A DNA stretch of 35,997 nucleotides from positions 1 through 35,997 of the forward strand of contig JBCCIM010000042.1 of NCBI GenBank assembly GCA_039111535.1, read 5' to 3'. How positions within the stretch are numbered: position 1 is the first letter of the stretch; each line of letters opens with the position of its first letter. This DNA comes from Bacteroidota bacterium (GTDB lineage Bacteria; Bacteroidota; Rhodothermia; Rhodothermales; JAHQVL01). The notes under the pieces were generated by a model. That model was not told where the DNA came from and searched no databases. It saw nothing but the letters and a program-made list of their open reading frames with translations. Positions 8,853-29,800 of the stretch are shown here, one piece after another. A program made the position numbers and the translations under genes.

Positions 8853-8862
8853 CAGTAGGTTG

Positions 8863-10281
8863 TTACTGCATTTGAGCCAACACCTCCTCAAATGACTGCA
8901 TCAGTTGCACTTCATTTGCATCCAGGTTCTCGCGCGGCACAGGCCGGCGCTCCCTGGGATCCTTCATCATATTAAACACGCGACCATCTTCGTATAGCTT
9001 CCAGGTATGGTTGTGTACATACCGGACGTGTTCAAACCGGCCCCATTGCGGTGCGTAGTGGCAAAACACCCAGGAGCGGACGCTATCTGCCTGTGCAACA
9101 AGTTGTTTGTGGAAACTAAGCCCATCAAGTGTATCCCCTTCAGGCAACGCAACACCTGCCAGGTCAGCCAGGGTGGGAAGAAAGTCGGTAAAATCTATCA
9201 GGTTGTTGTTCACAGCCCCTTCAGCGATTGTGCCCGACCAGTTGGCAATCATGGGCACATGGGTACCATACTTTGTGGGATTGCCTTTGTCACCACGGAT
9301 TTGCCTGTCGCCATACGCTGACGTGACATCCCTGTCCGTCCCATTGTCACCAATGAACAGCACGAGGGTCTGTTCTCGAATGCCCTGGTCATCCAGCGCT
9401 TCGACAAGTCGGCCAACAATTTTATCCATATACGCGACATTGTCTGCAAAATAAGCGGCGTCATTGAGATTGGAATCTGCCGGATTAAAAGCGGGATAAT
9501 CCGGGTGCCCGGGAGTTGGCTGAAACGGATCATGCGTGAGCACCATGGGATAGTATGCAAAAAAGGGACGATCCTTGTTTTGCGCCATGAATCCAATGAG
9601 CGAATCAGCAAACACATCTGGCCCGAAGGCGCCGTCGAGATGTTGTACGGTTTCACTGTTTAGATTCAAGCCGGGATTTTTGAAGCGGTTTGGGGGCCGT
9701 TCGTCAATCTGCCAGAGATAATAGGCATCAAAGCCAGCTTCAGCCGGTTTTGCACCTGTGCGATTAAAAAGTTGGCGTTGCTGGCGGTTGCCGTAGAGTT
9801 GCCATTTACCGGCAATTGCGGTACGGTAGCCGGCGTCCTGCATCATATGCCCAAAAGTTCGTTCTTCAGGATCCAGAATGCCAAAACCGACGTAATTTCT
9901 AAAGTTGTACTTCCCAGTCATCAGTTGTACACGCGATGGTGTACAAAGCGGCGTTGAATATGCAGCCGTGAATCGCATGCCGGTTTCGGCAAGTTGATCT
10001 AAATTTGGCGTGGAATATGCAGTGCTCCCATTAACCCCAAGGGTTTCATACCCAAGATCGTCAGCCATAATCAAAATGATATTTGGCTGTACCGGCGCAG
10101 CGTCCCCAAACTCCTCTCCCCCGCTGCATCCGGCAATACAAAAGAGTACCACTGTTGGCAATACATAGTATTGCAGCGCTGTAATCTGCCTTCTAATTAT
10201 TCTGCTACAGCCTGCAATCAGATTGCGCAGCTTTTGCGTCCCCTGAGATGCGTAATTCATAATCATCATTTGCATTACCAA
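8863..10281 (-). CDS. Sulfatase family lipoprotein (type I formylglycine sulfatase)
   Basis: 472 residues. The sulfatase domain begins PNIILIMADDLGYETLGVNG with the metal-binding Asp pair (D74, D75). It carries the maturation motif CTPSR (113-117), whose Cys113 would be converted to formylglycine. Further conserved parts are LMTGKYNFRN, AIAGKWQL and VLFIGDNGTD (calcium ligands). A hydrophobic stretch ending CIAGC (lipobox, Cys52) indicates a lipoprotein, but it is preceded by an unusually long 40-residue N-region, so the true start may lie downstream of 10281; no better codon is obvious. The enzyme should hydrolyse sulfate esters, probably on algal polysaccharides. No sulfatase-maturing enzyme is in the window. 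Convergent with the CFI-box gene, divergent from the NmrA-like gene. Confidence 0.9.
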   Translation of the reverse strand: MVMQMMIMNYASQGTQKLRNLIAGCSRIIRRQITALQYYVLPTVVLFCIAGCSGGEEFGDAAPVQPNIILIMADDLGYETLGVNGSTAYSTPNLDQLAETGMRFTAAYSTPLCTPSRVQLMTGKYNFRNYVGFGILDPEERTFGHMMQDAGYRTAIAGKWQLYGNRQQRQLFNRTGAKPAEAGFDAYYLWQIDERPPNRFKNPGLNLNSETVQHLDGAFGPDVFADSLIGFMAQNKDRPFFAYYPMVLTHDPFQPTPGHPDYPAFNPADSNLNDAAYFADNVAYMDKIVGRLVEALDDQGIREQTLVLFIGDNGTDRDVTSAYGDRQIRGDKGNPTKYGTHVPMIANWSGTIAEGAVNNNLIDFTDFLPTLADLAGVALPEGDTLDGLSFHKQLVAQADSVRSWVFCHYAPQWGRFEHVRYVHNHTWKLYEDGRVFNMMKDPRERRPVPRENLDANEVQLMQSFEEVLAQMQ

Positions 10282-10331
10282 TTGCCCGTGCGTATATGAA
10301 ATATTACTAATCTACCCCTTGCGAAACTACT

Positions 10332-11195
10332 ATGGCCCGCATATTAGTAGCCGGCGCAACCGGCAATTTAGGAAAACAAATTGTTGCCGAGCTAAAAAAA
10401 CAAAACCATTGGGTTCGGGCGTTGACCCGCAAACCCATGCGCCTCTTTCCGATGGCTGATGAAGTTGTTGGAGGTGACTTGAACCTCGTGCACTCCCTCA
10501 ATGCTGCCTGTGGCAATATCGACATCATCATCTCGGCAGCCGGCGCAAGTGTAAATCCTTCCCTTGCTCGGAAGGAAGGTGACTACAATTCGATTGATTA
10601 TCAGGGGCACCGCAACCTGTTGCGCGTTGCCGGCAACTCTGGCATTAAACGGTTTATCTACGTTTCTGTCTTTTCGACGCCGGCGCTGCAGCATCTAGAA
10701 TACATCAGCGCCCACACGCGGTTTGCGGATGAATTGAAAGCAGCCGGCCTGTCGTATGCTATCATCCAACCCACGGGTTTCTTTAGTTCATTTGATGCGA
10801 TCCTGGATATAGCCGCAGCTGGCATTGCACCCTTGATTGGAGATGGCAACGCCGTCACAAACCCCATTCATGAGGCAGATTTGGCCCGTGTATGCGTTGA
10901 TGCCATCGACGGGCCCAATCGGGAAATCCCGGTGGGTGGCCCGGAAATCTTTACACGGAAACAGATCTTTGAACTGGCATTCAGGATTCTCAACAAGAAA
11001 CCGCGTTTCATTCGCGTGCCAGGTGCGGCTATATCAGCACAGAGCAGGATTATGTCGTACTTTAACCCGCGTGTATCGCAACTGCTGCTTTTTCTGCAGC
11101 AAGTCAGTAAGGTAGACGTGGTAGCGCCGGCATCCGGCTCACATCGCCTGGGTACATATTTTGAAGAGAAAGTAAGTGTAACAGCAAATTCCTAG
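10332..11195 (+). CDS. NmrA/SDR-like NAD(P)-binding protein
   Basis: 287 residues. The N-terminal dinucleotide-binding loop is VAGATGNLGKQIV (GxxGxxG, residues 6-18). It is followed by VRALTRKP, which usually contacts the NADP phosphate, a KRFIYVSVFST strand and LSYAIIQPTGFF. This is the atypical/extended SDR layout shared with NmrA, UDP-sugar epimerase-like and NDUFA9-like proteins. The usual catalytic YxxxK is not present in standard form, so it may be a regulator, an isomerase or a quinone-linked protein rather than a typical dehydrogenase. No signal peptide, so cytoplasmic. Starts 50 bases from the divergent sulfatase and is followed after 64 bases by another SDR gene in the same direction. 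Confidence 0.85.
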   Translation: MARILVAGATGNLGKQIVAELKKQNHWVRALTRKPMRLFPMADEVVGGDLNLVHSLNAACGNIDIIISAAGASVNPSLARKEGDYNSIDYQGHRNLLRVAGNSGIKRFIYVSVFSTPALQHLEYISAHTRFADELKAAGLSYAIIQPTGFFSSFDAILDIAAAGIAPLIGDGNAVTNPIHEADLARVCVDAIDGPNREIPVGGPEIFTRKQIFELAFRILNKKPRFIRVPGAAISAQSRIMSYFNPRVSQLLLFLQQVSKVDVVAPASGSHRLGTYFEEKVSVTANS

Positions 11196-11259
11196 GCCAG
11201 GGATTGCCACCTGCCTCTAAAATGCAGTCAGCCCCCTGCCTCCTTCAACTTTTTGATTT

Positions 11260-12033
11260 ATGCCCCGGAAAAATATTTTTATCACAGGAGCAGCAGCAGG
11301 CATCGGCAAAGAAACAGCGCGACTTTTTGCAGCAAAAGACTGGTTCGTTGGATTGTTCGATATAGACGAAGCCGGCCTAAAAACGCTATCAGACGAATTG
11401 GGCGAAGCCAATGCTTGCTGGCATGTACTTGATGTCACCGATACACAAAGTGTAGCTGATGCAGTCGCTTTTTTTGGTGAAAAGACTGGCCAATCCATGC
11501 ACGTCTTGTTCAATAATGCCGGCATCATACACGCCGGCGATATCGACGCGATAAGCCTTGCACAACACAAACAGCTGATCGATGTGAATGTATGGGGCGT
11601 TATCAATTGCTCTGTGCAGGCACTTCCCCTGTTAAAGCAAACAAAAGGCGCAGCCATCGTGAACATGTCATCCGCGTCTGCACTGTACGGGCATCCGTCC
11701 CTCACAAGTTATGCGGCATCAAAAATGGCTGTACGCAGCATCACGGAAGGCATGGACCTTGGACTGGAAAAGCATGGCATACGGGTATCTGACGTTATGC
11801 CGATCTGGGTAAAAACCAACCTTGCAAAAAACGCCGCGAATGAGTGGCAGGGGCTCAAGAACAGTGATGTAAAAATTACGCCGCAGGCTGTGGCCAAACG
11901 CGTCTGGAAAGCTGCCCACAGTAAAAAATTGCACTGGTTGATGGGCGCCGAAACCTACGTATACAGCTTTCTTGGAAAGATAATGCCAGCTGCGATAACG
12001 CGCCGTACAGCTGCAATCATCACAAAAGACTGA
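11260..12033 (+). CDS. Classical short-chain dehydrogenase/reductase
   Basis: 257 residues. The cofactor loop TGAAAGIGKE (residues 9-18), LDVTD, NNAG, the catalytic serine in NMSSASALYG, and YAASK (Tyr-xxx-Lys) are all present, so it should be an active NAD(P)-dependent oxidoreductase. Asp after the second strand (LFDIDEAG) favours NAD(H) over NADP(H). Substrate unknown; relatives act on sugars, steroids and fatty acyl groups. The C-terminal 40 residues contain a hydrophobic AETYVYSFLGKIMPAAI helix. Same direction as the NmrA-like gene and likely cotranscribed; a separate promoter for the next gene is suggested in the 92-base gap that follows. Confidence 0.9.
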   Translation: MPRKNIFITGAAAGIGKETARLFAAKDWFVGLFDIDEAGLKTLSDELGEANACWHVLDVTDTQSVADAVAFFGEKTGQSMHVLFNNAGIIHAGDIDAISLAQHKQLIDVNVWGVINCSVQALPLLKQTKGAAIVNMSSASALYGHPSLTSYAASKMAVRSITEGMDLGLEKHGIRVSDVMPIWVKTNLAKNAANEWQGLKNSDVKITPQAVAKRVWKAAHSKKLHWLMGAETYVYSFLGKIMPAAITRRTAAIITKD

Positions 12034-12063
12034 AGCTCGAAACAGCGTTTCTGCCGCAGTACC

Positions 12064-12093
12064 TTGTAAAAAAGACGTTACTTAGCCTATACT
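12064..12093 (+). promoter_or_regulatory. Candidate sigma-70-type promoter for the ThuA-domain gene
   Basis: TTGTAA (12064-12069) and TATACT (12088-12093) are spaced by 18 bases, placing a start point about 25 bases before the ATG at 12126. Bacteroidota promoters differ from this consensus, so the call is weak. Confidence 0.3.
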
Positions 12094-12125
12094 AACAAGG
12101 TCTTAGATTAAACGGCAGAACCACT

Positions 12126-13067
12126 ATGCACTCCCGACACCTTACATCCATCCTGCTGATGCTAGTTGTATTGCTCGCTGCAGCATGTCAAACCGCAACA
12201 GGAGACAGCAATGCGCCGGCAGTAAAAGAGGCCAACAAACAAGTCTTGTTGCTATCCGGACAAAACAATCACGACTGGAAAGAAACCCACATATTCCTGC
12301 AAGAAATCATTGGTGAATCAGAGCACTTCGACCTGACTGTCACCTTAACGCCCGAAAAAGGGGCAGATGCTGCCGCCTGGGATGCCTGGCAGCCAGCATT
12401 TGCAGACTACGACGCCGTGGTTTTCGACTACAACGGTGAGATGTGGCCCGAAGTGCACAGACAGGCATTTGAGTCATACATTTCCGGAGGCGGAACGGCC
12501 TACATGGTACACGCCAGCAACAACCCATTTCCGGGTTGGACTGCCTACGAAGAAATGGTTGGCATACTCTGGCGCGGTAAAGACACCGGGACCCGTATCT
12601 ACATGAACGACGAAGACGCGCTGGTCGATCATCCGCCAGGAGCAGACCTGGGAGCCGGCCATGGCAAAGTACATGACTGGCAAATTCAGGTGCGCAACAC
12701 TTCGCACCCGATCATGAAGGACATTCCGCCCGTTTGGTTGCATGCGCATGATGAATTGTATCATGGCCAACGCGGACCTGCAGCAAACATGAAAATCCTT
12801 GCAACTGCCTATTCGGATCCCGAATTTGGCGGCAGTGGGCAGCACGAATTGATGATGTGGTGGATCCCATACGGGGATGGCAAAGTACTCACGTTCCTTG
12901 CGGGCCATCATTGGCCCAAACAAGACAATATCAATGCATTCATGTGTATTGGATTCCGGACTATGATCAACCGGGGCCTGGAGTGGCTAACAACAGGCGA
13001 TGTCACTTCGCCTGTCCCAGACAACTTTCCCACTGCAGATGCAGTTAGTCTGAAGGCTGCCAACTAA
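12126..13067 (+). CDS. ThuA-domain lipoprotein
   Basis: 313 residues with a lipoprotein signal (hydrophobic LLMLVVLLAAAC, Cys21). The mature domain starts VLLLSGQNNHDWKETH and has DYDAVVFDYNGEMW, YISGGGTAYMVHAS, a HPIMKDIPPVWLHAHDELYH stretch and TFLAGHHWP. This is the glutamine-amidotransferase-like fold of the ThuA/trehalose-utilisation family. ThuA was named in Sinorhizobium, where ThuA/ThuB process trehalose-type disaccharides through 3-keto intermediates; many secreted ThuA-like proteins lie beside Gfo/Idh/MocA oxidoreductases and cytochromes, as here. It is anchored to the cell envelope and probably acts on keto-sugar derivatives (inference). Followed after 41 bases by the DUF4399 gene in the same direction. 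Confidence 0.9.
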   Translation: MHSRHLTSILLMLVVLLAAACQTATGDSNAPAVKEANKQVLLLSGQNNHDWKETHIFLQEIIGESEHFDLTVTLTPEKGADAAAWDAWQPAFADYDAVVFDYNGEMWPEVHRQAFESYISGGGTAYMVHASNNPFPGWTAYEEMVGILWRGKDTGTRIYMNDEDALVDHPPGADLGAGHGKVHDWQIQVRNTSHPIMKDIPPVWLHAHDELYHGQRGPAANMKILATAYSDPEFGGSGQHELMMWWIPYGDGKVLTFLAGHHWPKQDNINAFMCIGFRTMINRGLEWLTTGDVTSPVPDNFPTADAVSLKAAN

Positions 13068-13108
13068 GGCTTCTCAACCCTATAAATATTTACCTTACTG
13101 TTTTTCTT

Positions 13109-13543
13109 ATGAAAACGAATGTTTCTTTACTCTTTGTTTTGTTGATGGTGTTTACGGTCACGGGTGCATGCGCGCAACAGATGGAACGCAGTGCATCGCC
13201 AGCCGGCGCATCAGCTTATATTATTTCGCCGGCACATGGTGAAATGATCACCGGCCCTGTTACAGTGAAATTTGGTTTGCAAGGCATGGGCATTGCACCG
13301 GCCGGCATCAAATACCCTGACGCAGGCCACCACCACCTGCTGATCAACGCTACCGGACTGCCCGACCTCAACATGCCTATCCCGGCTGATGAAGTCCATA
13401 AACACTTTGGTAAAGGACAAACAGAAACGATCCTCGACCTTGAGCCCGGTACGTATACCTTGCAAGTGTTGCTAGGCGACCAGAACCATGTGCCACATGA
13501 TCCACCAGTGATGTCAGAAGTAATCACCATTGTGGTCAAGTAG
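13109..13543 (+). CDS. Secreted DUF4399 domain protein
   Basis: 144 residues. Signal peptide MKTNVSLLFVLLMVFTVTGA with cleavage near ACA-QQ; a lipoprotein reading (VTGAC) is possible but the lipobox is poor. The mature part YIISPAHGEMITGPVTVKF, AGHHHLLINATGLPDL, then LEPGTYTLQVLLGDQNHVPH is the DUF4399 pattern, a small beta-sandwich with a conserved histidine cluster that may bind metal. Function unknown. It is likely the last gene of a two-gene unit with the ThuA-domain gene, since a strong terminator hairpin follows 14 bases after its stop. Confidence 0.9.
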   Translation: MKTNVSLLFVLLMVFTVTGACAQQMERSASPAGASAYIISPAHGEMITGPVTVKFGLQGMGIAPAGIKYPDAGHHHLLINATGLPDLNMPIPADEVHKHFGKGQTETILDLEPGTYTLQVLLGDQNHVPHDPPVMSEVITIVVK

Positions 13544-13557
13544 GACCTAATAACTAC

Positions 13558-13606
13558 AAATAGAAAAGCCGGCAGATGTACTTTACATCTGCCGGCTTTT
13601 CTATTT
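13558..13606. terminator. Strong bidirectional intrinsic terminator
   Basis: Arms 13558-13580 and 13584-13606 are exact 23-base reverse complements around a CTT loop. The GC core (GCCGGCAGATGTA) is flanked by an A-rich left arm and a T-rich right arm (CTTTTCTATTT), so it can work in both directions. It ends the DUF4399 transcript; on the minus strand it would stop read-through entering the 3' end of that gene. The core contains the GCCGGC word that is over-represented in the window. Confidence 0.9.
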
Positions 13607-13748
13607 AATCTCCACATGTGCGACTTAGGGGATAATCTGCATTAATGACTGCTTCTCTGGCAAAAAAAGAGAACATCACGCGACCTTCGTCACTCGAAAA
13701 TCGGCATTAAACGCAACCCTTAGTTCGCATCTAATATGCGCCCCAGAA

Positions 13749-14615
13749 TCAGGAAGCCAGTGTTGAAAGGTAGGCCTGAATTGATTTGAGTTCGGTATCG
13801 GTCATATGGCTATACGCCCGCCACGGCATAACCGTTGGGTCCATTTCCGGATTACTGGGTGTTTCTCCAGTACGCATCGCTTTAACAAACACATCAAAAG
13901 GCCATGCGCCGGCTGCAACCAGATCTGGGGGTGCCGGCTTGCCTGGCTCAAGCGGCTCTCCGCCACGCATTGATTCCCCATGACAATACCCGCAAGTGAT
14001 GGAGGCGAGGTATTTACCCTGTGCAACCTGGCCAGCCGCTTCATCTACTGGCTTACGTTCCGATGCCAGATGTACTTCACTGGCTACATCGAGGGCCCCG
14101 GTGCCGGCGAGTACTTTCCCAATGGTTCTGAGCTCGGTTTTAGGGACTTCATTGTCGACAGGAGTCAACTGCTGGAAATACGAAATCATGGCAGCAGCAT
14201 CTTCATCGTTCAGGTTGTGTAGCGTTCGGGATGGCATGAACATCAACGCCGAGCCATCCGGACGCACGCCATATCGAATGGCCCGATCCCAGTCTTCAAC
14301 AGAAAAACTGCCCCCAACGCCGCCTTTGCCTGACGTTAGGTTTGACGCGCCCGTAACAAATGGTGGGGCATCAATAAAAATTTGGCCGGAGAAGTTTTCG
14401 GCATGACAGTCCGCACACGCGTGTATCTTCGCCAGGTGTGCGCCTCTGGCAATCGTAGCCGAGTCGGTTGGTACGTCTGATAAAAGGGTTGCAGTAACGG
14501 TATGGATTTCAGCTTTTGCTGAAGCGCCTTTGTTGGTGACGACAAAGCCGGCAACGAGCAATACAATAATAAGCCCAAGCAGAACAATGCCTGTCCATTT
14601 TAAAAATGTTTTCAT
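13749..14615 (-). CDS. Membrane-anchored diheme cytochrome c
   Basis: 288 residues from the ATG at 14615 (an ATG at 14633 would add six). A single N-terminal membrane helix (TGIVLLGLIIVLLVAGFVV) anchors two cytochrome c domains outside the cytoplasm. Heme sites are CADCH (67-71) and CGYCH (208-212), with candidate Met ligands in ALMFMPSRTLHNL and in the C-terminal PTVMPWRAYSHM. The first domain (VEDWDRAIRYGVRPDGSAL, LNDEDAAAMISYF) resembles cytochrome subunits of membrane alcohol or sugar dehydrogenases. It probably receives electrons from a periplasmic oxidase of sugars, for which the nearby Tat-exported Gfo/Idh/MocA proteins are candidates (inference). No cytochrome oxidase lies nearby. An element shared with the 17213-19093 gene lies about 100 bases upstream. 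Confidence 0.9.
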   Translation of the reverse strand: MKTFLKWTGIVLLGLIIVLLVAGFVVTNKGASAKAEIHTVTATLLSDVPTDSATIARGAHLAKIHACADCHAENFSGQIFIDAPPFVTGASNLTSGKGGVGGSFSVEDWDRAIRYGVRPDGSALMFMPSRTLHNLNDEDAAAMISYFQQLTPVDNEVPKTELRTIGKVLAGTGALDVASEVHLASERKPVDEAAGQVAQGKYLASITCGYCHGESMRGGEPLEPGKPAPPDLVAAGAWPFDVFVKAMRTGETPSNPEMDPTVMPWRAYSHMTDTELKSIQAYLSTLAS

Positions 14616-14715
14616 GGTACTGAGATGGGTCAACAGACCCGGTGGTTAGTGGTAGGTCTTGAATAAACAGGTGGCAAAAAGAGGGCAACAAAGCCAATCA
14701 CGGATGCCTCCTGGG

Positions 14716-14746
14716 TATGCGACAAAATTTAGTACTTTGCGACATA
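14716..14746 (-). promoter_or_regulatory. Upstream element shared with the ketosynthase operon
   Basis: Read on the minus strand this has TATGTCGC, then GTACT, then TTTTGTCGC and ATAC, with TGTCGCA repeated 20 bases apart. The same blocks in the same order occur at 19169-19216. It lies 101-131 bases before the cytochrome c start. TAAATTTTG resembles the Bacteroidota -7 box (TAnnTTTG). Promoter or operator role is inferred. Confidence 0.3.
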
Positions 14747-14754
14747 GAAGACTA

Positions 14755-14789
14755 AAAAGGGCTGCACCTTCACAGATAACAGCCCTTTT
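14755..14789 (-). terminator. Intrinsic terminator after the first Gfo/Idh/MocA gene
   Basis: AAAAGGGCTG (14755-14764) pairs with CAGCCCTTTT (14780-14789) around a 15-base loop. On the minus strand the stem is followed by a T run, 27 bases after the stop of the 14816-16195 gene. It separates that gene from the cytochrome c promoter region. Confidence 0.8.
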
Positions 14790-14815
14790 ATCACAGTATT
14801 TTTGGCAACATTAGC

Positions 14816-16195
14816 TCATACTTGTGCCGGCACCACAAACGGCTCGCGGTATGCACGGGTTAAATGTTTGTTGGCTTCTTTGTCTCCCGGGAAGGTTTCA
14901 TCATCCCCATCAAACCGCAACTCGCGCCCCAATTGATACGCGATATTGCCAAGCATGGGCAACGCAGAAGACATGTGCCCTTTTTCAATATCGCAGGTCA
15001 AGTCATCGCTATTACCAGATCGTACCGCCGCAATAAAATTGTTGTAGTGTCCCCCGCCTCCCGGCGCTGCAAGGTAACCAGTTGTATTTCCATCGTCTTG
15101 TTCACCTCCGCTATCTGAACTGGGACCGGGTTCATCATTACGACCCAAGTAGGTTTTCCAGTTGCTACCGCTTAGCTCCATCCACCCTTCTGTGCCGTAG
15201 AAGAGGTTACCAATCTTAACATTCATCGAATCCTCGCCGGCGGTATACAGGCCGCGCACTTCAAATTGCAGCAGCTTGCCATCTGCGTACTCAAACGTTG
15301 TGGTTTGCGTGTTGGGCGTTTCCTGCGAACACACGTCAGAAGTAAACTTGAAGTAGCCTCCCATCGATTGGATGCGCACAGGGTGTTCATCTTTGCCCAG
15401 CCCCCAGCGCGCAATGTCGTACTGATGTGGCCCCTGGTTGCCATTGTCGCCGTTACCGGTAGCCCAATGCCAGTGCCAGTTGTAGTGGGCTTTCTTTTCG
15501 TTGTAGGGCCGCCACGCAGCTGGCCCAAGCCACAAGTCATGGTGGAAGCCGGCCGGCGCCTCGCTGTCGGCTGCAATACCAAATGAGTCGCGTGGTTTAA
15601 AACAAAGGCCCCGCGCCATATACACCTCACCAAGTCCACCGTTGTGCAAAAACTGCATGGCTTGCCGAACATTGTTTATCGATCGATTCTGAAATCCAAC
15701 CTGCACAATCACGTTGTATTTACGCGCCGCCTCTATCATTTTCCGGCCTTCCCAAACGTTATGCGAACTGGGTTTTTCCACATAAACATGTTTGCCCGCC
15801 TGACACGCCCAAATTGTGGAAAGCGCGTGCCAGTGGTTTGGTGTCGCTATAGAAATGGCGTCTATCTCCTGGTCGTCAAATACGCGACGCATATCGATTT
15901 CGGTACCAGGCGCCTCACCTTGCAGTTCTTCAACTGCTTTGATACGCTGTTCAAACAGATTTTCATCTATGTCACAAATGGTACGTATCACCACGTTGTT
16001 GTTTTCTGCCATGCCGGCCCATCTACGCAGGTGACTAAATCCTTGACCACGCACACCGATAACGCTCATGTTTATCCGTTCGTTGGCGCCTAAGATGTTT
16101 GCATAGCTTTTAGCCGTCATGCCCATACTGCCAAGGGTTACCCCTGCCGCGCCGGCAGCAAGTTTTTTGAGGGTCGCTCTGCGTGAGGTGTTCAT
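14816..16195 (-). CDS. Tat-exported Gfo/Idh/MocA family oxidoreductase
   Basis: 459 residues. A twin-arginine signal (SRRATLKKLAAG, residues 4-15, then a hydrophobic stretch) predicts folded export with bound cofactor. The Rossmann loop is MSVIGVRGQGFSH. The family motif EKP is at 140-142 (VYVEKPSSHN), after the conserved ISIATPNHWHALST. The C-terminal domain has GFHHDLWLGPAAWRPYN and GNQGPHQYDIARW, typical of the large secreted Gfo/Idh/MocA group that acts on sugars, often forming or reducing 3-keto groups. Substrate unknown. The nearby cytochrome c and ThuA-domain proteins fit a sugar-oxidation pathway. It follows the 16284-17177 gene by 88 bases on the same strand, probably with its own promoter. 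Confidence 0.92.
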   Translation of the reverse strand: MNTSRRATLKKLAAGAAGVTLGSMGMTAKSYANILGANERINMSVIGVRGQGFSHLRRWAGMAENNNVVIRTICDIDENLFEQRIKAVEELQGEAPGTEIDMRRVFDDQEIDAISIATPNHWHALSTIWACQAGKHVYVEKPSSHNVWEGRKMIEAARKYNVIVQVGFQNRSINNVRQAMQFLHNGGLGEVYMARGLCFKPRDSFGIAADSEAPAGFHHDLWLGPAAWRPYNEKKAHYNWHWHWATGNGDNGNQGPHQYDIARWGLGKDEHPVRIQSMGGYFKFTSDVCSQETPNTQTTTFEYADGKLLQFEVRGLYTAGEDSMNVKIGNLFYGTEGWMELSGSNWKTYLGRNDEPGPSSDSGGEQDDGNTTGYLAAPGGGGHYNNFIAAVRSGNSDDLTCDIEKGHMSSALPMLGNIAYQLGRELRFDGDDETFPGDKEANKHLTRAYREPFVVPAQV

Positions 16196-16283
16196 CGTTG
16201 TCTTTGCCCGATTTTTTATGTGGATGGCCCGCGTTGAAAATGCCGACCGTTAAAGTCGCGTGTTATGGAAAAAGAAGAAATTG

Positions 16284-17177
16284 CTATGCTGTAGATTCTT
16301 GGGCAGCTAATTGGGCCCGCTTGTGCTGTACGAGTGCGGCATGCAAGTTCTCAGCTGCCAGGCCATGCAGCATCAGGCGGTTGCCGGCCTTTAGGGTCGA
16401 CATGGGAATCATAGGATGTTTGTTATTCACCAGGCTGAGGTAGCTTGTATCTCCAATCAACTTGGCTGCGTAAATGGCTACTGTTTCGTCTAGCTGCAAT
16501 GAATTGCACGCCCTCCAGAAATCGCTATCGGTAAGAAAGAGCTGATACAGCGGGGTATACACTTCAATGGCCGTTTCAAGATCTATAAAATTCAACCAGC
16601 TTTTAGGCAAAGGTTCGATGGGAAACGGTCCGTCTGTGATGGCATCAAAATTTAGCTTTTCGCGGGCTTTCAGTTCAATGCCTTTTTCCCGCATTTCTTT
16701 ATTGAGCCGGATGATAAAGTTGTAGATATTCAGGTCATGTGTAAGAAAGACATGATCGCGCAGGTCCCACAAGTTCTTTGGTCGCAACGGATTTAACTCG
16801 ATTTCTGCTTCGGGGACATTGTCTACAATGAATTGCAAAATCTCGGTGCCGATGTTGAAATGCCTGAGAATGAGCAAGTTGGCCTCTGGCATCACAAATC
16901 GTTTCAACCCATGATAAATCCCCTTGTGCAGGAAAGCAGAAGAGGTAAACTTGTTGGGAATAAAAATTTTGAGCACCTGAAAAAGTGCAATAAAGAGGCG
17001 TGCAAACGGTCGGACAAGCGGTAACAGAAACTGGCGCGAGCGCGAGCTGTTGCTACGCAAAATTGAGGCTTTTGCCTCCCTACGCATGGGCACACTGGTA
17101 TCAAGAAACAGGGCGAGCCATGGGTCAGGATCTTTTGGATCGTGTGCAATCTGGTCAAAATGCTGGGTAACTTCCAT
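16284..17177 (-). CDS. Unrecognised alpha-helical protein, partner of the ketosynthase fusion
   Basis: 297 residues; I do not recognise the family. There is no signal peptide. Residues 50-75 are hydrophobic and amphipathic (FLLPLVRPFARLFIALFQVL), which suggests membrane association. The middle has FVMPEANLLILRHFNIGTEI, NLWDLRDHVFLTHDLNIYNF and ETAIEVYTPLYQLFLTDSDF. Several His/Glu/Asp residues (RHFN, HVFLTHD) could bind metal, but no signature is clear. The C-terminus includes KHPMIPMSTLKAGNRLMLHG. It starts 35 bases after the stop of the ketosynthase III-diiron fusion on the same strand, so the two are almost certainly cotranscribed and likely share a pathway or complex. A membrane-bound lipid-modifying role is a guess. 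Confidence 0.7.
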   Translation of the reverse strand: MEVTQHFDQIAHDPKDPDPWLALFLDTSVPMRREAKASILRSNSSRSRQFLLPLVRPFARLFIALFQVLKIFIPNKFTSSAFLHKGIYHGLKRFVMPEANLLILRHFNIGTEILQFIVDNVPEAEIELNPLRPKNLWDLRDHVFLTHDLNIYNFIIRLNKEMREKGIELKAREKLNFDAITDGPFPIEPLPKSWLNFIDLETAIEVYTPLYQLFLTDSDFWRACNSLQLDETVAIYAAKLIGDTSYLSLVNNKHPMIPMSTLKAGNRLMLHGLAAENLHAALVQHKRAQLAAQESTA

Positions 17178-17212
17178 CTTATTCCATGTCCAATTGATGT
17201 GGGAGAACCGGG

Positions 17213-19093
17213 TTAGAATGAGCCTATTTCTTCCAACTGCAACAAATACAGTCGGGCTGTGACTTTGGCCGTTTTCACTATATGATCGACCAGAGGCGCA
17301 GTAAGAATGCCCGACTGCACCGCCATATCCAGCCGTTCAAAGTGGTATTCGTCACTTTCCGAATGATAGAGAAAAAAGGACACCTGGTCATCGCTGAGGT
17401 TGAGTTGCTCCTGGATGAGCGTGCCCCATCGCCGGGCAATACGCATTCCCAGCCCTTCAATGATAAACATCGCGCCTATCAGATCAAACGGATTTTCTCG
17501 GCTTGCCTGATGGAGGATGAATGCTGTCAGGGCCTCGCTTCCGATATTGCGTGTGCCAGCATACATTTCGTCAAGCTTGCCGCCAACCGCAACATAGTTT
17601 TTTTCGAGCATTTCGTAATCCCGATGCTCATCGCTGGTATGCGCAATGAAGGCGGATCGAATGGGAAAGTATTCGCGGGTGATATTGGATGCAGCCCGTG
17701 CAATCCAGCGTGACCCATCGATGACTTGCTGACGGAGGTTGAATAGAAAGTCGCGATAATCATGCATCGATAGCCGGCCGCGGTTGAGCTTGTCGACAAT
17801 AGGCACCTGATTCAACTGCTGCTCAAACTCAACCCATACCCGGGCCAACTGGCGCACCAGAGAGGCTTCCAGTGCCGTACCTTTGGTGCGCAACAAGGGC
17901 GGTTCAATGTCATCTACCGCGCGACCCACGGTAGTAATTGCGTTATCAGCCTGTTTACTGCCGGCGACAACGGTAGCCAGCATATAAGCAAAAGAAAACC
18001 GACCGCTTTCCGGCACAACGCACAGCACTTGCTGGCCCTCCGCCAGTTTACCTGACTGGAAGAGTTCATCCAACATGATAAAAATGGAGGCTGCCCCCGT
18101 ATTCCCTTTTGTATATAGGTTTGTAAACCACCGCTCCTCGGGGATGACAACGCCCCCGCGTTTCATCAGCTCGCGCGCTTCACCCCGAAAAATGTGTGAG
18201 GAGTAGTGGCAGCAAAACCAGTCAATTTGATCCGGATTTAGCTTGCCAGCCTCGATTAGCTCGAAAAAACCATCCACAGCGCATTTCATCACATCTTTCA
18301 ACATCCGGGTATCTTGCCGCAAATTGATTGCGCCAACATCAGCTGCTGCGTGGTAGCTATCGTAATCCAGCCACGACGTGTCAACATGTCCCGCGTCATT
18401 TTTAGCCGGCCCAACGTACATGCACGGGTCATATTTACTCGCAAGTGACTTGATCTCCAGCCACTCAATACGCAGTGAGTTACCGCGTAAATCGGGTTGG
18501 GGCTCCAGCACCATGGCCCCTGCGCCGTCTGATAGCATCCAGCGCAGGAAGTCGGTATCAAAGGGGACACCTCCGTTTTCCTGGTACGCCGCCTGCTGCT
18601 CAAATCGGCTCGCCTTGAAGAGCCGGCTGGGCAATTCGCTTGCGCACGCAACAGCTTTCTCTTTCTCGCCGGCGCCAACTTCAAGAAATGCGCTGCGGAG
18701 GGCCATCATACCACTCGAACAGATGCCATGGTGCGAGGTAATGGCGCAGGCCGGCGTTTCAAGTTCGCCGTGTACCATGCTGGCAAAACCCGGCACCGGT
18801 AAATCCCCCTGTGTGGTAGCCAGTGCCAAAAAGTCAATTTCCTTTTCCAGCACACCACTTCCTTGCAGGGCTTCACGAATGGCTCCCACGGCCAGTTCAG
18901 CGTTTGAATGCGTGGTACGCTGGGTTTTGTCCAGCGCATAATGCCTGCGCTTGATACCGTTCTGTTTCAAAATGCGGGTTCGTAACCGCGATGGCTGCCC
19001 TCCAATCATACCCAGGTAGCTTTCTATATCGTCATTCTCAACGGGTTCGCCGGGTAAAAAGCTGCCAGTTGAAGTGATGTATACATCTCGCAT
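17213..19093 (-). CDS. Ketosynthase III (FabH-like) fused to a heme-oxygenase-like diiron domain
   Basis: 626 residues from the ATG at 19093 (MRDVYITSTGSFLPGEP); an ATG at 19150 would add a 19-residue basic extension. Residues 1-385 are a thiolase-fold ketosynthase III with the full triad: Cys125 in GICSSGMMA, His296 in CCHYSSH, Asn331 in KGNTGAAS. It should condense an acyl-CoA or acyl-ACP with a malonyl-type or second acyl unit. Residues about 410-620 form a second, all-helical domain with VPIVDKLNRGRLSMHDYRDF, HTSDEHRDYEML (485-496), IIEGLGMRI (Glu546) and YHSESDEYHFERL. The last gives H577-x3-D581-x2-H584, 31 residues after Glu546, matching the H-x3-D-x2-H ligand pattern of heme-oxygenase-like diiron oxidases such as CADD and SznF. 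Single-chain fusion of the two is unusual. First gene of a two-gene operon. Confidence 0.85.
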   Translation of the reverse strand: MRDVYITSTGSFLPGEPVENDDIESYLGMIGGQPSRLRTRILKQNGIKRRHYALDKTQRTTHSNAELAVGAIREALQGSGVLEKEIDFLALATTQGDLPVPGFASMVHGELETPACAITSHHGICSSGMMALRSAFLEVGAGEKEKAVACASELPSRLFKASRFEQQAAYQENGGVPFDTDFLRWMLSDGAGAMVLEPQPDLRGNSLRIEWLEIKSLASKYDPCMYVGPAKNDAGHVDTSWLDYDSYHAAADVGAINLRQDTRMLKDVMKCAVDGFFELIEAGKLNPDQIDWFCCHYSSHIFRGEARELMKRGGVVIPEERWFTNLYTKGNTGAASIFIMLDELFQSGKLAEGQQVLCVVPESGRFSFAYMLATVVAGSKQADNAITTVGRAVDDIEPPLLRTKGTALEASLVRQLARVWVEFEQQLNQVPIVDKLNRGRLSMHDYRDFLFNLRQQVIDGSRWIARAASNITREYFPIRSAFIAHTSDEHRDYEMLEKNYVAVGGKLDEMYAGTRNIGSEALTAFILHQASRENPFDLIGAMFIIEGLGMRIARRWGTLIQEQLNLSDDQVSFFLYHSESDEYHFERLDMAVQSGILTAPLVDHIVKTAKVTARLYLLQLEEIGSF

Positions 19094-19168
19094 AATACGT
19101 GACCTGTTATTGATAGTGCGCCGGGGCCCAATGCCATCAGCTAAGCACAATAAAAAGAAGCAATGGCT

Positions 19169-19216
19169 GTATGTCGCGACAAAACCTATAACAGAAGTAC
19201 CAAAAACACGACATAT
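19169..19216 (-). promoter_or_regulatory. Upstream element of the ketosynthase operon
   Basis: Located 76-123 bases before the 19093 start. On the minus strand it reads TATGTCG, GGTACTTCTG, TATAGGTTTTGTCGCGACAT and ATAC, containing the palindrome TGTCGCGACA (19172-19181). The block order matches 14716-14746. TAGGTTTT resembles the Bacteroidota -7 box. Function inferred. Confidence 0.3.
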
Positions 19217-19313
19217 CTGCCAGAAACTATCATTTTTGCGCTACAATCGAAAAGGTAGCACGATTCGCGCTGACATCGTAGATTAAAGCAGTCCTCCTCC
19301 TAACAGCTACCCA

Positions 19314-20654
19314 ATGGCCATGAACCGCAGAAACTTCCTAAAAACCGGCGCTGCCCTTGCCAGCATTCCCACGATTATCCCTGCATCAGCCCTTGGCCGA
19401 GCAGGACGCCCAGCCCCCAGCGACCGCATCACCATGGCGCTTATTGGCGCAGGCAACCAGGGCATTAATGACATGAACGGATTTCTTGGTGATGAGCGCG
19501 TACAGTTCACGGCCGTATGCGATGTAAACAAAGAGAGTGCGGGGTATTGGAACGGAAAAATTGCCGGCCGTGAACATGTCCGCCGACTCATCAACTGGCA
19601 TTACGCCAATCAAACGGCTTCCGGCAGCTATAAAGGCTGTGATAGCTACGAGGACTTTCGCGATGTGATGAACCGGGATGATATAGACACGGTATTGCTG
19701 GCCCTGCCTGATCACTGGCACGCTATTCCGACCATCATGGCGGCACGTGCCGGCAAAGACATCTATGGTGAGAAGCCGCTCTCCCTTACCATTGCAGAAG
19801 GCAGGGCGATGAGCGATGCCGTGAAAGTGAACAACAGAATTTTCCAGACGGGCAGTCAACAGCGTTCTGACTTCAGGTTTCGGCGGGCGTGCGAACTGGT
19901 GCGCAACGGTCGCATTGGAGACTTAATCTCGGTGCGTGTTGGCCAGCCTTCGGGCACCCCTGATTTTGGCAAATCGGGCAATCGCAGATCGCCAGAACCT
20001 GTACCCGCCGGCTTCAACTATGACCTGTGGCTTGGCCCTGCACCAGAAGCGCCCTACAGTCCGGCCCGATGCCACGTAAATTTCCGCTGGATCTTTGATT
20101 ACTCGGGTGGACAGGTGACAGATTGGGGAGGCCATCATCCGGACATTGCCCAGTGGGGTATGGGCACAGAAGATACAGGACCGGTTGCCGTCAAAAATGC
20201 AAAGGGAATTTTCTCCACGGATGCCCCCTGGGACACAGCAACTGAATACTATTTCGAATGCCACTACAAAAATGACGTAAGGCTTACGGTGTCGAGCAAA
20301 GACAAAATGGGGGTTCGATTTGAAGGCACTGAAGGCTGGATTTGGGTGACCCGTGGTAACTGGGACGCGTCAAACCCTGCCTTGCTGGATTCCGAAATTG
20401 GCGCTGACGAAGTCCACCTTTACAAAAGCGAGAACCACTTCCGCAATTTCATTGACTGCATAATTTCCAGGGAAGCCCCGGTGGCACCAATAGAAACAGC
20501 ACACCGGTCGATCACCATTGCCCATCTTGGCAACATTGCGATGCAAGTGGAGCGTGATCTAACCTGGGACCCGGACAACGAACAGATTATTGGCGATGAG
20601 GAAGCCAACAATATGTTGTCACGGCCGATGCGTGCCCCCTGGAGCCTGGAATAA
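19314..20654 (+). CDS. Tat-exported Gfo/Idh/MocA family oxidoreductase (second copy)
   Basis: 446 residues; the ATG at 19320 is an equally good start. The twin-arginine signal is NRRNFLKTGAALASIP. The Rossmann loop MALIGAGNQGIND (GxGxxG) is canonical, and the family motif EKP lies in DIYGEKPLSLT after LLALPDHWHAIPT. The C-terminal half has GFNYDLWLGPAPEAPYSP and GGQVTDWGGHHPDIAQW, the hallmark of secreted sugar oxidoreductases. Overall it resembles the 14816-16195 product in layout but differs considerably in sequence, so the two probably handle different substrates or opposite steps. It is divergent from the ketosynthase operon. Its last 36 bases overlap the end of the opposite-strand beta-helix gene. 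Confidence 0.92.
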   Translation: MAMNRRNFLKTGAALASIPTIIPASALGRAGRPAPSDRITMALIGAGNQGINDMNGFLGDERVQFTAVCDVNKESAGYWNGKIAGREHVRRLINWHYANQTASGSYKGCDSYEDFRDVMNRDDIDTVLLALPDHWHAIPTIMAARAGKDIYGEKPLSLTIAEGRAMSDAVKVNNRIFQTGSQQRSDFRFRRACELVRNGRIGDLISVRVGQPSGTPDFGKSGNRRSPEPVPAGFNYDLWLGPAPEAPYSPARCHVNFRWIFDYSGGQVTDWGGHHPDIAQWGMGTEDTGPVAVKNAKGIFSTDAPWDTATEYYFECHYKNDVRLTVSSKDKMGVRFEGTEGWIWVTRGNWDASNPALLDSEIGADEVHLYKSENHFRNFIDCIISREAPVAPIETAHRSITIAHLGNIAMQVERDLTWDPDNEQIIGDEEANNMLSRPMRAPWSLE

Positions 20655-23123
20655 GTCTCTTCGACCGTCTTTCTCGGAGGCGCCGGCTGTGCAAGAAGCA
20701 TCAGCTGCCGGGAAGCAGGTAATGATGCCGGTCACATATTGCAAAACCAGTGCAGCATCAAGCGCGGACAAGTCTCCGTTGCCGGTTACATCGCCGGCGA
20801 TATACGCTGCGCCTTCCAGTTCTATGTACCCGACGGTGTATTCCAGAATTGCTGAAGCATCTGAGGCAGAGACAGTACCGTTGCCGGTTACATCACCAAA
20901 CGCCTGGGTAATTTGTGTATCAAATCCGAGTGATGCCTCGCTGATCATATTCCATGCATTGCTGCTTGTACCGTAACCAATGATACGGACATATCGAGCT
21001 GTGACTGGTGTTATGTTATACGTTTCCAATCCCGTTGTGGCCCCCGAACTCTCCATGTTCTCAGCGACTGTGGTCCAATCGGCAGCGTCTTCAGAGACAG
21101 CAATATCAAAGTAGGCTACACGCGTATCGCCACGTGCCCATGCCAATTCTACTGAAGAAACTGTAGCACTAGAAGAAAGGCTGTACTGAATCCATTGCCC
21201 TTCTCCGTGTGCTGCCCAACGGGTATTAAACTGCCCGTCGAGTGTGTTATCCGGGCTCGCACCTTCGCGGCTATCACTTGCGATAACGCTGGTTATGTAG
21301 ACGTCCTCGCTATCCTGTGTGGTTACAGAAACGGTTACTTCGCTGGATATGGTTGTGGCACCTTCGTTATCCGTAGCGCCTGCGGTTAGCACGTAAGATC
21401 CATCCAGCACATTGGACCACTCAAAAGAATAGGGTGCGTCTGCGTCACTCCCCTGCCAAAAACCATCAACATAAAAATCGACGCTGGTAATGGTGCCATC
21501 CGGATCAGAAGCATCAGCCTCAATGGTGACGCTGCTGCCGGAAGCGAAGTTGGTCCCGCTGGCGGGCGAGGTAAGATTAATTTCAGGTTTATCGTTTGTA
21601 TCTCCAGGCCCGATACCGATGAGGTTTTCGTAGCGCAACTGCGCCGGAATTTTATTAGTAGCCGATGTGCTTACGTCGTGACCAAAAGCCGGCCAGGCAA
21701 GGTCTGACGGCCAAAATGCCGGCGGTGCTTCGAGATAAAGCGAGGGCGGAATATCTGCACCACTAGATAAGGTATTCCATTCTGTCGCCCCCTGTATAAC
21801 GTTCCCTTCAGCATAGAGGTCATCAACATCAGCATCCTTTTCCAGCGTACTATTGCGCAGGAAATAGTTTGATATGATGTTTTGTGAATCAGAGTTGTCA
21901 TAAACGATGACGCCCTGATCGTTCTCTTTTTTTCCGTGGATCTGGCTCCTGAACAGGGTATTCTCTGGTCCTACCTGCCCCCAAAAATCTGCAAACCCTA
22001 CCCACCAAACGATATTGCCTTCGTACAGGTTATGGTTTGAAAAATGGCCATGCAGGCTGAGGTCAACCAGTTCCTTAATATCCACATTGTAGTTGTAGCT
22101 GATGACGGAATGGTTCACCCCGGTTTGCATCAACATGTGATGACGGAGATTTTTGAAAATGTTGTTGGTGACCAGAATATTTGTTGAGAGATTTTCGAGG
22201 TTCACCCCATATCCATGCCCACCCGTACCGTAGTTCTGTGCGTCATGGATGTAGTTACCACTGATCTCCACCTGCCGGCCACGATAAACAAACACGTGAA
22301 ATTTGACGGCATTGTAAGATTCTACATTCTTGACAAAGGCATTGTAAACCGTACGGAATTCGATATTCGAAGACTCATCATACTGTTTTCGCTCGATGTA
22401 GAGGTCCTCAACCCCCACATTGCGCAGCGGCCGCAGTTTTAGCACCTTGGGCTGTTGAGACGTATCGATGCCTAATGAGAGCGGCAAATCAACGGTTACA
22501 TCGTTGCCATTAATTGCAGTAATAAACACAATTTGTCCCCATGATCGGCTGCCCCATTCTGCATCCCAGGTTTCCAGTTCCTGGTTGATCTGGATGAGGT
22601 CTCCAACGGCGAGGTCATTTGTGTTCTCGAGGGTCAAAACCTGCCCGCCGGCCGCGGTGTTGCTTACCACATTGGTTTCGTCGTACGTCCATCCTAAAAA
22701 GCGAATGCCGTTGATTGCAGAGCCGTCGAGGTAAAAGAAGGTCTGATCGCTGCCGGCGCCGCGGATAATGACATTGTCGTTGTTGATGTCGACAGCGGAA
22801 GCAAAAGTATACTCCCCTGGCGGGAAGTAGAGGACGGTGGGTACGTCCGCCTCATTCGCCAAATTCATCAACACAGGACTGGCATCTGCGGCACCCGGTG
22901 TGATGCCGGCAGTTGTGACATCGACTACGGTCCAGCCGCCTGGATCTTCCCAATTGAAGTCGCGCCATTCAGCTACAGGAAATCTATCAGCGGGCAAGCT
23001 TCCAAAATCAACAGGCGCTTGCTGGCTGGTCTGCCACTGCGCATGCAAAAGCACTACAAAGAAAGGCTGTACAAAAAACAATACACCCAACACACAGGCA
23101 AAAACCCGAATCCTTGCTTTCAT
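20619..23123 (-). CDS. Secreted beta-helix protein with Ig-like, F5/8 type C and dockerin domains
   Basis: 834 residues. Signal peptide 1-28 (VLFFVQPFFVVLLHA). Residues about 30-490 form a right-handed parallel beta-helix of the pectate-lyase superfamily, with FPPGEYTFASAVDINNDNVI, VEISGNYIHDAQNYGTGGHG and VTNNIFKNLRHHM. About 505-600 is an Ig-like domain (VTIEADASDPDGTITSVDFY). About 608-745 is an F5/8 type C (discoidin) carbohydrate-binding domain (NTLDGQFNTRWAAHGEGQW). About 750-815 holds two dockerin-like calcium loops, GDVTGNGTVSASDAS and GDVTGNGDLSALDAA. The enzyme probably cleaves an acidic polysaccharide, or binds one; the active residues cannot be assigned. The last ~12 residues are encoded antisense to the Gfo/Idh/MocA gene. 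No cohesin is present in the window. Confidence 0.88.
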   Translation of the reverse strand: MKARIRVFACVLGVLFFVQPFFVVLLHAQWQTSQQAPVDFGSLPADRFPVAEWRDFNWEDPGGWTVVDVTTAGITPGAADASPVLMNLANEADVPTVLYFPPGEYTFASAVDINNDNVIIRGAGSDQTFFYLDGSAINGIRFLGWTYDETNVVSNTAAGGQVLTLENTNDLAVGDLIQINQELETWDAEWGSRSWGQIVFITAINGNDVTVDLPLSLGIDTSQQPKVLKLRPLRNVGVEDLYIERKQYDESSNIEFRTVYNAFVKNVESYNAVKFHVFVYRGRQVEISGNYIHDAQNYGTGGHGYGVNLENLSTNILVTNNIFKNLRHHMLMQTGVNHSVISYNYNVDIKELVDLSLHGHFSNHNLYEGNIVWWVGFADFWGQVGPENTLFRSQIHGKKENDQGVIVYDNSDSQNIISNYFLRNSTLEKDADVDDLYAEGNVIQGATEWNTLSSGADIPPSLYLEAPPAFWPSDLAWPAFGHDVSTSATNKIPAQLRYENLIGIGPGDTNDKPEINLTSPASGTNFASGSSVTIEADASDPDGTITSVDFYVDGFWQGSDADAPYSFEWSNVLDGSYVLTAGATDNEGATTISSEVTVSVTTQDSEDVYITSVIASDSREGASPDNTLDGQFNTRWAAHGEGQWIQYSLSSSATVSSVELAWARGDTRVAYFDIAVSEDAADWTTVAENMESSGATTGLETYNITPVTARYVRIIGYGTSSNAWNMISEASLGFDTQITQAFGDVTGNGTVSASDASAILEYTVGYIELEGAAYIAGDVTGNGDLSALDAALVLQYVTGIITCFPAADASCTAGASEKDGRRDLFQAPGGTHRP

Positions 23124-26857: not shown

Positions 26858-29800
26858 CTACTTAACCAGCATCATCGTCTTGCTGAACGACTTACCAGCC
26901 GCCTCAAGCCGATAAACGTAAACCCCTGAAGCCAATCCGGAGCCATCAAAACTGGCACTATATCGACCCGCTGCCTGCTGGCCATCAACAAGCACTTTCA
27001 CCATACGCCCTTGCGCATCGTAAACAGCCAGCTTTATGTGCCCGTCTACTGGCACGTCATACGAAATCGTAGCTACAGGATTAAAAGGATTCGGATAGCT
27101 GGACATATCGTATGCTTCCGGTGCCGGCAAATAGACTTCAGCAACCTCAGAATGACGGAAGTCGCCATTAAAGTCTACCTGCTTGATCCGGTATGCAGCA
27201 CGGCTTGCACGAAGTCCGCGTGCCGCATCTTTAAAGGTGTAGGTGTGAGCGGTATCTGAAGTACCCTGCCCTTTCACAAATCCGATGTTCAGCCAGCCCG
27301 TCGCACCATCGCGATCCGTTACGCGGCGCTGCACCTCAAAACCAGCGTTGTTCACTTCGCTAGCCGTTGTCCAGACAAGCTGAACACTTCCGTTGTCAAA
27401 CACCGCATCAAACTGCGTCATCTCAACCGGCAGTGTCACATCGTCAGGATTGTCCGTGATAAGCATGAGAATGTCATCATCTTCGAGTACCACGCCTGTA
27501 AACGAGGCAACACCAGCCGTAAAGCTGTTGGCTTGCTGCAAGATCCGGCTGCCATTTGTAGGATCTGTATCGGTATCTACAACCAACCAGAAATCTGTCG
27601 CAGCACTACCAGATACGGTCGCACCATTAAGGTCAAACTGCAACTCAAGGCTGCCCGAATTGCCTGTCTCTTTAACCAACCACTTCCGCCCCAGCAACTG
27701 TGCCGGACTGGAACCGAACATGACCGTGCTCTCGGTCAGGGCACCTGTATCGTGGCCCCAAAAAAGGAAGCTTTTATCAGACGCAAATGAGTTGCCATTT
27801 GACGGGTTGTCTGCAGCCAGACTACCGCGGCTCGCAGCCATTATGCCGCCAACAGACTGCTTCTGGTTTAACCCGGAAGCATCATCCCGACCGATACCGG
27901 CAACGTCATTGTGGTAAATGGCATTTGCTGTTGGATCCCATAACAGGGTCGCATCGGATGCCACATAGTTGTTATCCAACTGCAAACCATATTTAAGTGC
28001 AAGATAAGTGTCAATTTGTAGCTGCTCAGCATCAGATACTGCACCCGTAAACACAATCAGTTCTGCGATATCAGAATCGTTGTAATCAGAACTCGGCACG
28101 TTGTTGGCCAACTGAAAATCATTAATTGAGGGAAAGGTAAACGATGAAACAGAAGCATCGGTAGAAACCAAATTACCATCGCGGTAAATGGCTTGCTTCG
28201 GTGTCGCTGATTCATACTCGAAACCCCACAGGTATGGCGTTCCAACTGACTCACTCCACGCTGCACTCAATCGAAAATCGCCGCTCGTAGTACCTGCATC
28301 CCAGTAAATGGTCGAAAGTGTATTAAACGGTACGTGTGCACTTACCCTGTCGCTTTGACCCACTTCCTGCTCTATAAACAGCCAGCTATCTGAAAGGGTG
28401 TTATGCTGCGCTACCACAAAGATATTCACATTGCTATGCGCTGTGTTCTCAAAAACACTCGGTGTATTCAACCCTTCACTGTTAGATGCATCAAAGGCTA
28501 CAATCGGATTGTAATTCAGATCGGATGCAGCAAATGCCGGCAAGTTTGAAACCCCATTGGCCGCAGCATCACGTGCATTTCCACTCTGATCTGCCCATAC
28601 AGAAATGTCTCCCGCAGACTCCGTAACCCCGGCATCCGACTTCAACCACAGCGCTAGATTTGACGCTACACCACCTGGTGCCGGCATGTTAGCCCCAAAC
28701 GTGAAGAAGTCACCATTCGAAAAGTTGATTGTCGCGCTCGATGTGCCATCGCCATTATCACTCAGCAATGTCTCATCAGGAGAAGTAAAACTAGCGTTGT
28801 CGTCAGAGATCAGGTATGTAGCTCCATATGCATTCGGAATTCTTACCTCGACGGTACCTACACCATTTACTTCCTTAACCTTCCATTCACGCGCCATACG
28901 ACGATTGGTGCTGGTACCGGCAAAGGCTTCGGTCAGCAGCGTGCTTCCGTTGTCATCGGCCCATGCCAGGAACTGCAAATCGCTCGAAAACGTGTTGACA
29001 TTGGACGCGTTATCTGCTGCATAGCTGCCCAGGGCGATAGTAACGAACGCGCCGGCTTCGCTACTCATGGTTTGCTTCTGGTTCAGTCCAGAAGCATCAT
29101 CGCGGCCAATTGCGGCAATGTGAAAGTCGTATGTACCTCCCAGTGCACGAACTACGGTGCCATCTGAAGCAAAATAATCGTGCCCGAGTGTGATGCCATA
29201 TTTTATTGCGAGATAGGATTCTACTTCGTGCATTTCCTGGGTCGTCATGACCTGTGAATGGACCACCACCTCATAAATCTCACCGTTAAAGACGCCGCCT
29301 ACCCCATCGTCACCGAGGCCACCAATTTCGAACGTGTTGGAAGTTGTTGGATCTTGATCTGCTGTAAACTGCAACAACTGTGTACCATTCCCAAACACGT
29401 ACGAACCACTCGCTGCATCTTCGTCAAACTGGACTGTACCGATGGTTGGCACATCTGTTGGGAAAAGACCCAGCGCTGTGTCAAATGTGGGTCCATATCC
29501 TACCTCACCGTCAGTACCTGAGTGATTGCGGATTAGACGATCTCCGGAGCCGTCAAATTCGCCCCAGACAGGGCCGGCAGCAGCAGCAGTTGTCCGGTAG
29601 ACGGCAAAAATGGTTGCGTCAGGTGCTGTTCCTGCATTGATATCGAGTGCCGTATCCAGGTAATCATCTGTCCCATCAAAAAGCAAAGCCGGATTGAAGT
29701 TCAAGCCGTTTGCCACATACATGGGCTGCAAGGTACCGCTTGCCTGCGTGGCGTTGTTGGAATTTGTACTCTGGTCCGCCCAGGCGCTCACAGCGCCAAC

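Follow-up and report, generated by a model that had tools for sequence, protein, structure and literature searches.

A ketosynthase joined to a diiron oxidase-like domain

We found that a Bacteroidota bacterium encodes a single protein joining a beta-ketosynthase III (KS) domain related to StlD and DarB to a heme-oxygenase-like diiron oxidase (HDO) domain, next to a gene for a DUF6999 protein. Our favored reading, held tentatively, is that this KS-HDO protein carries out two steps in a small lipid-biosynthesis cassette spread by horizontal transfer, in which a DarB-like condensation would be followed by oxidation by the HDO domain. The three proteins stay together, fused or split, in widely differing bacteria and in marine archaea, a pattern pointing to a single conserved reaction sequence.

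The KS-HDO open reading frame lies on the minus strand, from 19093 to 17213, of the window (the whole 35,997-nt stretch of DNA that was analyzed). It encodes 626 amino acids from an ATG; an upstream in-frame TTG at 19150 gives an alternative of 645 amino acids. The KS domain spans residues 1-379 (17956..19093, minus strand). It is followed by a linker predicted with low confidence (17909..17955, minus strand; pLDDT <50 at residues 379-395) and by the HDO domain, a putative dimetal oxidase or oxygenase covering approximately residues 396-626 plus the stop codon (17213..17908, minus strand). The DUF6999 (PF22523) gene, encoding 297 amino acids, lies 35 nt downstream on the same strand (16284..17177, minus strand). 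The flanks encode Gfo/Idh/MocA oxidoreductases, a cytochrome c, ThuA and a pectate-lyase-like protein. These form no recognizable biosynthetic cluster, so KS-HDO and DUF6999 stand as a two-gene unit alone in the window. The original prediction, a ketosynthase III followed by a heme-oxygenase-like oxidase, was borne out for both halves, by a match to StlD and a score above the PF14518 cut-off. Chance was excluded as a source of this architecture because several bacterial phyla, and archaea as well, have full-length homologs (38-63% identity).

Elsewhere in the window, two neighboring minus-strand genes (26858-29941 and 30046-35997) encode very large proteins that look secreted and contain repeated modules and a C-terminal sorting tail of the YPNPFNP type. 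A 798-amino-acid family-B DNA polymerase-like protein is encoded on the plus strand (3513-5909), with the motifs DIEVYSEAGFPN, YADVESLYPS and EVDTDGV recognized by eye.

The KS domain is related to StlD and DarB

The KS half was closest to StlD, which acts as ketosynthase/cyclase in the Photorhabdus stilbene pathway (PDB 5gk0-5gk2), both in sequence (E = 1e-86 against 5gk0; 42% identity over 372 residues) and in fold (AF2 model against 5gk2: VIA Z = 53.6, rmsd 1.6, 372 residues). The earlier description of a FabH-type triad was correct as to ketosynthase III, but a generic FabH this domain is not. The catalytic triad fell where it had been predicted, and we observed that it was conserved in the cassette-side KS rows (C125, 55/56; H296, 55/56; N331, 56/56). 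All three residues were also present in 15/15 other StlD/DarB-type KS.

Scores against curated models fell below the cut-offs, narrowly for the StlD/DarB model NF005293 (437.9 bits over residues 4-376; cut-off 450) and by a wide margin for the DarB model NF053539 (380.7 bits; cut-off 550). We therefore named the cassette KS a sister subfamily and not a DarB, and its reaction may differ from those of StlD and DarB. On the KS tree, rebuilt without two long-branch rows that had disturbed the first tree, the cassette KS formed one clade of 54 rows (bootstrap/SH-aLRT 100/100). StlD and 14 other StlD/DarB-type KS fell apart from it; those outside included one KS from Prevotella and those from deltaproteobacterial clusters. 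The cassette KS thus share their triad with StlD and DarB but differ from them in their own clade, their scores under the curated cut-offs, the fused or adjoining HDO and the pairing with DUF6999.

Two kinds of related loci were observed alongside. A relative of the window's order carries a short locus (L003; G008:C242) with neither HDO nor DUF6999; its KS is 45% identical over the first 226 residues and has an unstable place in the tree. Several deltaproteobacterial loci (L093, L097, L100, L104 and others) have a StlD/DarB-type KS within large clusters containing radical SAM proteins, FabF-type KS, acyltransferases and ABC transporters, again without HDO or DUF6999.

OleA and PpyS, head-to-head ketosynthases that share the KS III fold and join two acyl chains, suggest another route. 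The KS would make a linear long-chain beta-keto acid head-to-head, and the HDO would decarboxylate or cleave it to an olefin or shortened ketone. OleA was near the KS model in fold (VIA Z = 38.6), and fatty-acid decarboxylation by an HDO is known from UndA (PMC13108848). We nevertheless regard this route as unlikely. In OleA and PpyS, a Glu ~24-26 residues before the catalytic Cys is needed and deprotonates the bound acyl chain (PMC4578411). Position 99 of the cassette KS was L, V, P, M, I or A, never Glu, and position 101 likewise had no Glu but a near-invariant Pro (P101 in 80/83 KS). The OleA-type Glu is absent from StlD and DarB as well, and StlD, not OleA, was the nearest solved relative in both sequence and fold. 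The missing Glu makes the olefin route named in the original prediction less likely.

The HDO domain carries a candidate metal site

The HDO domain scored above the PF14518 (Haem_oxygenas_2) cut-off of 28.9 bits, both within the whole protein (31.7 bits) and alone (34.4 bits), and all 22 HDO domains scanned matched this family at E 0.1. The predicted model of residues 396-626 is all helical (pLDDT mostly 84-98) and places E489, E546 and the H577/D581/H584 group on three helices. Foldseek and VIA searches with the full 626-amino-acid model listed thiolase-fold (KS-type) structures only.

We observed that E489, E546, H577, D581 and H584 were invariant in 63/63 aligned HDO domains, and H490 in 62/63. 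The previously noted C-terminal motif was present as described, with 31 residues from E546 to H577 and then H-x3-D-x2-H (577/581/584). The first metal helix reads H485-x3-E489-H490-x-D492; H485 and H490 were invariant or near-invariant, and D492 was invariant. A profile search matched 3dde (E = 3.5e-10) and, weakly, MboA (9ypi; E = 0.07). Set against the metal ligands of MboA (PMC13185094), E489 aligned with Glu86 and D492 with His89 (chain numbering shifted by 25, by our own count). Most HDOs have six ligands, three His and three carboxylates (PMC13108848). Because D492 stands where MboA has its first-helix His, the ligand set of the cassette HDO may be unusual: the third His may come from H485 or H490, or carboxylates may dominate the site.

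The cassette HDO therefore resembles the superfamily that includes UndA, SznF, MboA, CADD and PolF in its Pfam family, in the all-helical domain of the model, in the helix Glu followed 31 residues later by H-x3-D-x2-H and in the conserved Glu on an earlier helix. It differs in its fusion or coupling to a ketosynthase and in the H-x3-E-H-x-D pattern of its first metal helix, and it has no close sequence relative of known function.

KS and HDO stay linked through fusion and fission

A whole-protein search with one genome per species yielded 79 loci. Fused KS-HDO proteins occurred in Acidobacteria, Paenibacillus, Myxococcus/Corallococcus, Leptolyngbya-type cyanobacteria, Plantactinospora and uncultured Myxococcota. 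KS and HDO were separate genes in sphingomonads, gammaproteobacteria (Alkalimonas, Cellvibrionaceae) and Poseidoniales (marine group II archaea), adjacent in the order KS-HDO and usually overlapping by a few bases. The exception was Novosphingobium profundi (L105), in which HDO and DUF6999 lie ~8 kb from the KS within one locus; there (9995-20744), the KS part and the HDO-DUF6999 pair are each preceded by a gene from one TetR-like cluster (c16).

Fused and split forms interleaved on the KS tree, with at least 5 changes between them. Sequencing frameshifts may account for some of the splits in draft genomes. This interleaving indicates that the KS-HDO link was kept through repeated fusion or fission, which is standard evidence for a shared pathway. 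The distances of the three proteins were also correlated (KS-HDO, r = 0.88; KS-DUF6999, r = 0.75; HDO-DUF6999, r = 0.76), and none of 2000 permutations reached values as high.

These observations bear on a role for the HDO in protecting or regulating the KS, by consuming O2 or peroxide or by sensing a metal, with the KS product left unmodified. Such a role has a precedent in DtpC, a desiccation-protection HDO of Acinetobacter that is tied to defense against oxidative stress and not to biosynthesis (PMC13232832). We consider it very improbable for the cassette HDO. The direct fusion or translational coupling to the KS, the KS-HDO co-variation and the lipid-enzyme neighbors argue instead for a substrate shared by the two.

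DUF6999 is a near-constant partner

The DUF6999 protein of the window is a clear member of PF22523 (409 bits against a cut-off of 27; profile positions 1-275 of 275). DUF6999 was present in 59/64 HDO loci, the window's own included. In four of the five loci without it, the contig ends within ~1 kb of the HDO gene, which leaves a Leptolyngbyaceae MAG (L043) as the sole real exception. No locus with DUF6999 but without HDO was seen among the loci found via KS-HDO. KS-HDO had been the route to all of those loci, so we repeated the search blind with a DUF6999 model. Matches were obtained in 3/296 genomes of the window's phylum and in 6/289 alphaproteobacterial genomes. All eight matches outside the window's genome adjoined both KS and HDO, one of which (G327) was already known from the KS-HDO search. 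DUF6999 is thus an obligate-looking, near-constant partner of KS-HDO.

Alignment of 49 DUF6999 sequences showed eleven invariant residues (D26, R105, H106, N120, P133, H147, D148, D199, D230, H271 and E276). Eight of them are His, Asp or Glu (all but R105, N120 and P133), and this conserved set suggests a metal site. The predicted model is all helical (pLDDT 94.6, pTM 0.91), and a hydrophobic helix lies near the N terminus. No clear match to this fold was found in the PDB (Foldseek best E = 0.17; VIA best Z = 4.7 over 71 residues), nor any sequence relative there (best E = 0.64); a weak structural match is no proof of a new fold. A reading of DUF6999 as a diverged HDO was unsupported on sequence (hhalign probability 0.3%). 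An HD-domain assignment (H...HD...D) had no supporting profile, and we do not claim it. We found no paper on DUF6999, and the databases gave no function or structure for it.

With respect to mobile elements, DUF6999 was absent from 50,697 phage records and from viral contigs. One Pseudoalteromonas plasmid carries the DUF6999 cassette, with KS and HDO as separate genes.

HDO and DUF6999 may stand in place of a DarA-type partner

In DarAB systems, DarB is a cyclase and DarA an aromatase (PMC3949708), and expression of darB with darA yields a dialkylresorcinol (PMC3992019). We observed a flavodoxin-like protein adjoining two DarB-type KS, on Streptomyces plasmids and in Prevotella. We take this protein to be DarA-like from its position and size; no NCBIfam family model names it. 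The cassette loci lack it, and so do 11 cassette genomes, among them the window's; if it is DarA-like, this sets the cassette apart from the dialkylresorcinol pathway. HDO and DUF6999 thus stand where the DarA-type partner would be.

The Streptomyces plasmid cluster (L132, Streptomyces sp. NBC_00008 plasmid, 7706-16144; also L133) combines a StlD/DarB-type KS, ACPs and the flavodoxin-like protein with an FAD monooxygenase, a P450, FabF and FabG, and is possibly of the dialkylresorcinol type.

Lipid-type neighbors occur in some lineages

Genes of lipid metabolism adjoin the cassette in several lineages. A fatty acid desaturase gene (FA_desaturase, PF00487) overlaps or touches it in Corallococcus and relatives, in one deltaproteobacterial MAG, in one Myxococcales MAG and in several Poseidoniales. 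Sphingomonad cassettes have an acyl-ACP-phospholipid O-acyltransferase alongside, and in one acidobacterial copy a fatty-acid hydroxylase (FA_hydroxylase) overlaps the KS. In Poseidoniales, gammaproteobacteria and Myxococcales, a His-rich 190-amino-acid membrane protein overlaps the KS start by 4 nt (L063:9423-9998, L050:9432-9998, L062:9072-9653 and L131:5621-6178, the last assigned by position only). It has invariant His/Glu motifs (HE..AH.D...R.IS..E.HAH.L..P) and no Pfam or NCBIfam match, and it looks like an uncharacterized membrane metalloenzyme. In a deltaproteobacterial MAG, the desaturase is followed by a 270-amino-acid protein (L048:4127-4939) with E..H-type motifs and no Pfam match, which resembles ferritin-like diiron proteins.

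The desaturase, the His-rich membrane protein, the hydroxylase and the acyltransferase are what membrane-lipid modification would lead one to expect. An unusual chain (branched, cyclic or cross-linked) would enter phospholipids or other polar lipids, and the HDO would act on the acyl chain and not on a free secondary metabolite. The location of the cassette, usually outside recognizable secondary-metabolite clusters, and its broad, scattered distribution that includes Poseidoniales also fit. We still hold this to be a rather unlikely account. The lipid neighbors are lineage-specific, and only KS, HDO and DUF6999 are common to all lineages; the window copy has no adjoining lipid gene besides DUF6999.

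Proposed pathway

In the favored two-step reading, the KS would be acylated at C125 and would join two acyl thioesters, most likely in the StlD/DarB style, in which a 2,5-dialkylcyclohexane-1,3-dione arises from a beta-ketoacyl thioester and an alpha,beta-unsaturated one. Alternatively, the product may be a closely related cyclic or beta-diketo lipid. We propose this step because of the KS family, triad and fold; weighing against the reading, the cassette itself includes no ACP or acyl-activating gene. The HDO domain would bind two iron ions (or Fe/Mn) through E489, E546, H577, D581, H584 and a further first-helix ligand, activate O2 and oxidize the KS product by dehydrogenation, aromatization or hydroxylation, taking the place of the flavodoxin-like, DarA-type partner. 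This step is suggested by the residues of the candidate metal site and by the lack of a DarA-type partner. DUF6999 may act on the same membrane-bound lipid as a second metal enzyme, or it may accept the product or pass it on; here, the evidence is its co-occurrence only.

A further-reaching version is possible, if doubtful. The cassette would encode an undescribed O2-dependent pathway, spread horizontally across many bacterial phyla and Poseidoniales, to a new class of two-chain lipids. The HDO, with its unusual ligand set, and DUF6999, as a metalloenzyme with no clear fold match, would together perform the oxidation that is the task of DarA elsewhere.

Implications

As the original prediction had supposed, no published function was found for the KS-HDO architecture. 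We found no paper on this fusion, and the words "ketosynthase" and "fused" do not occur in a 2026 review of HDOs (PMC13108848). The search for proteins with the same domain order and for their neighbors returned fused relatives, the split-gene counterpart and the DUF6999 partner. The original prediction covered part of this system; the split-gene form and DUF6999 were missing from it.

The product of the cassette has so far been named by no one. If the favored reading is correct, the HDO superfamily would gain a reaction coupled to a ketosynthase, and DUF6999 would have a first function. The DarA step of resorcinol-lipid biosynthesis would also have an alternative that depends on oxygen. Caulobacter vibrioides, a tractable laboratory organism, gave a DUF6999 match, and if KS and HDO adjoin it there, a direct test may be possible. 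Surface oceans hold abundant Poseidoniales, and a cassette lipid made by them could matter for work on marine lipids.
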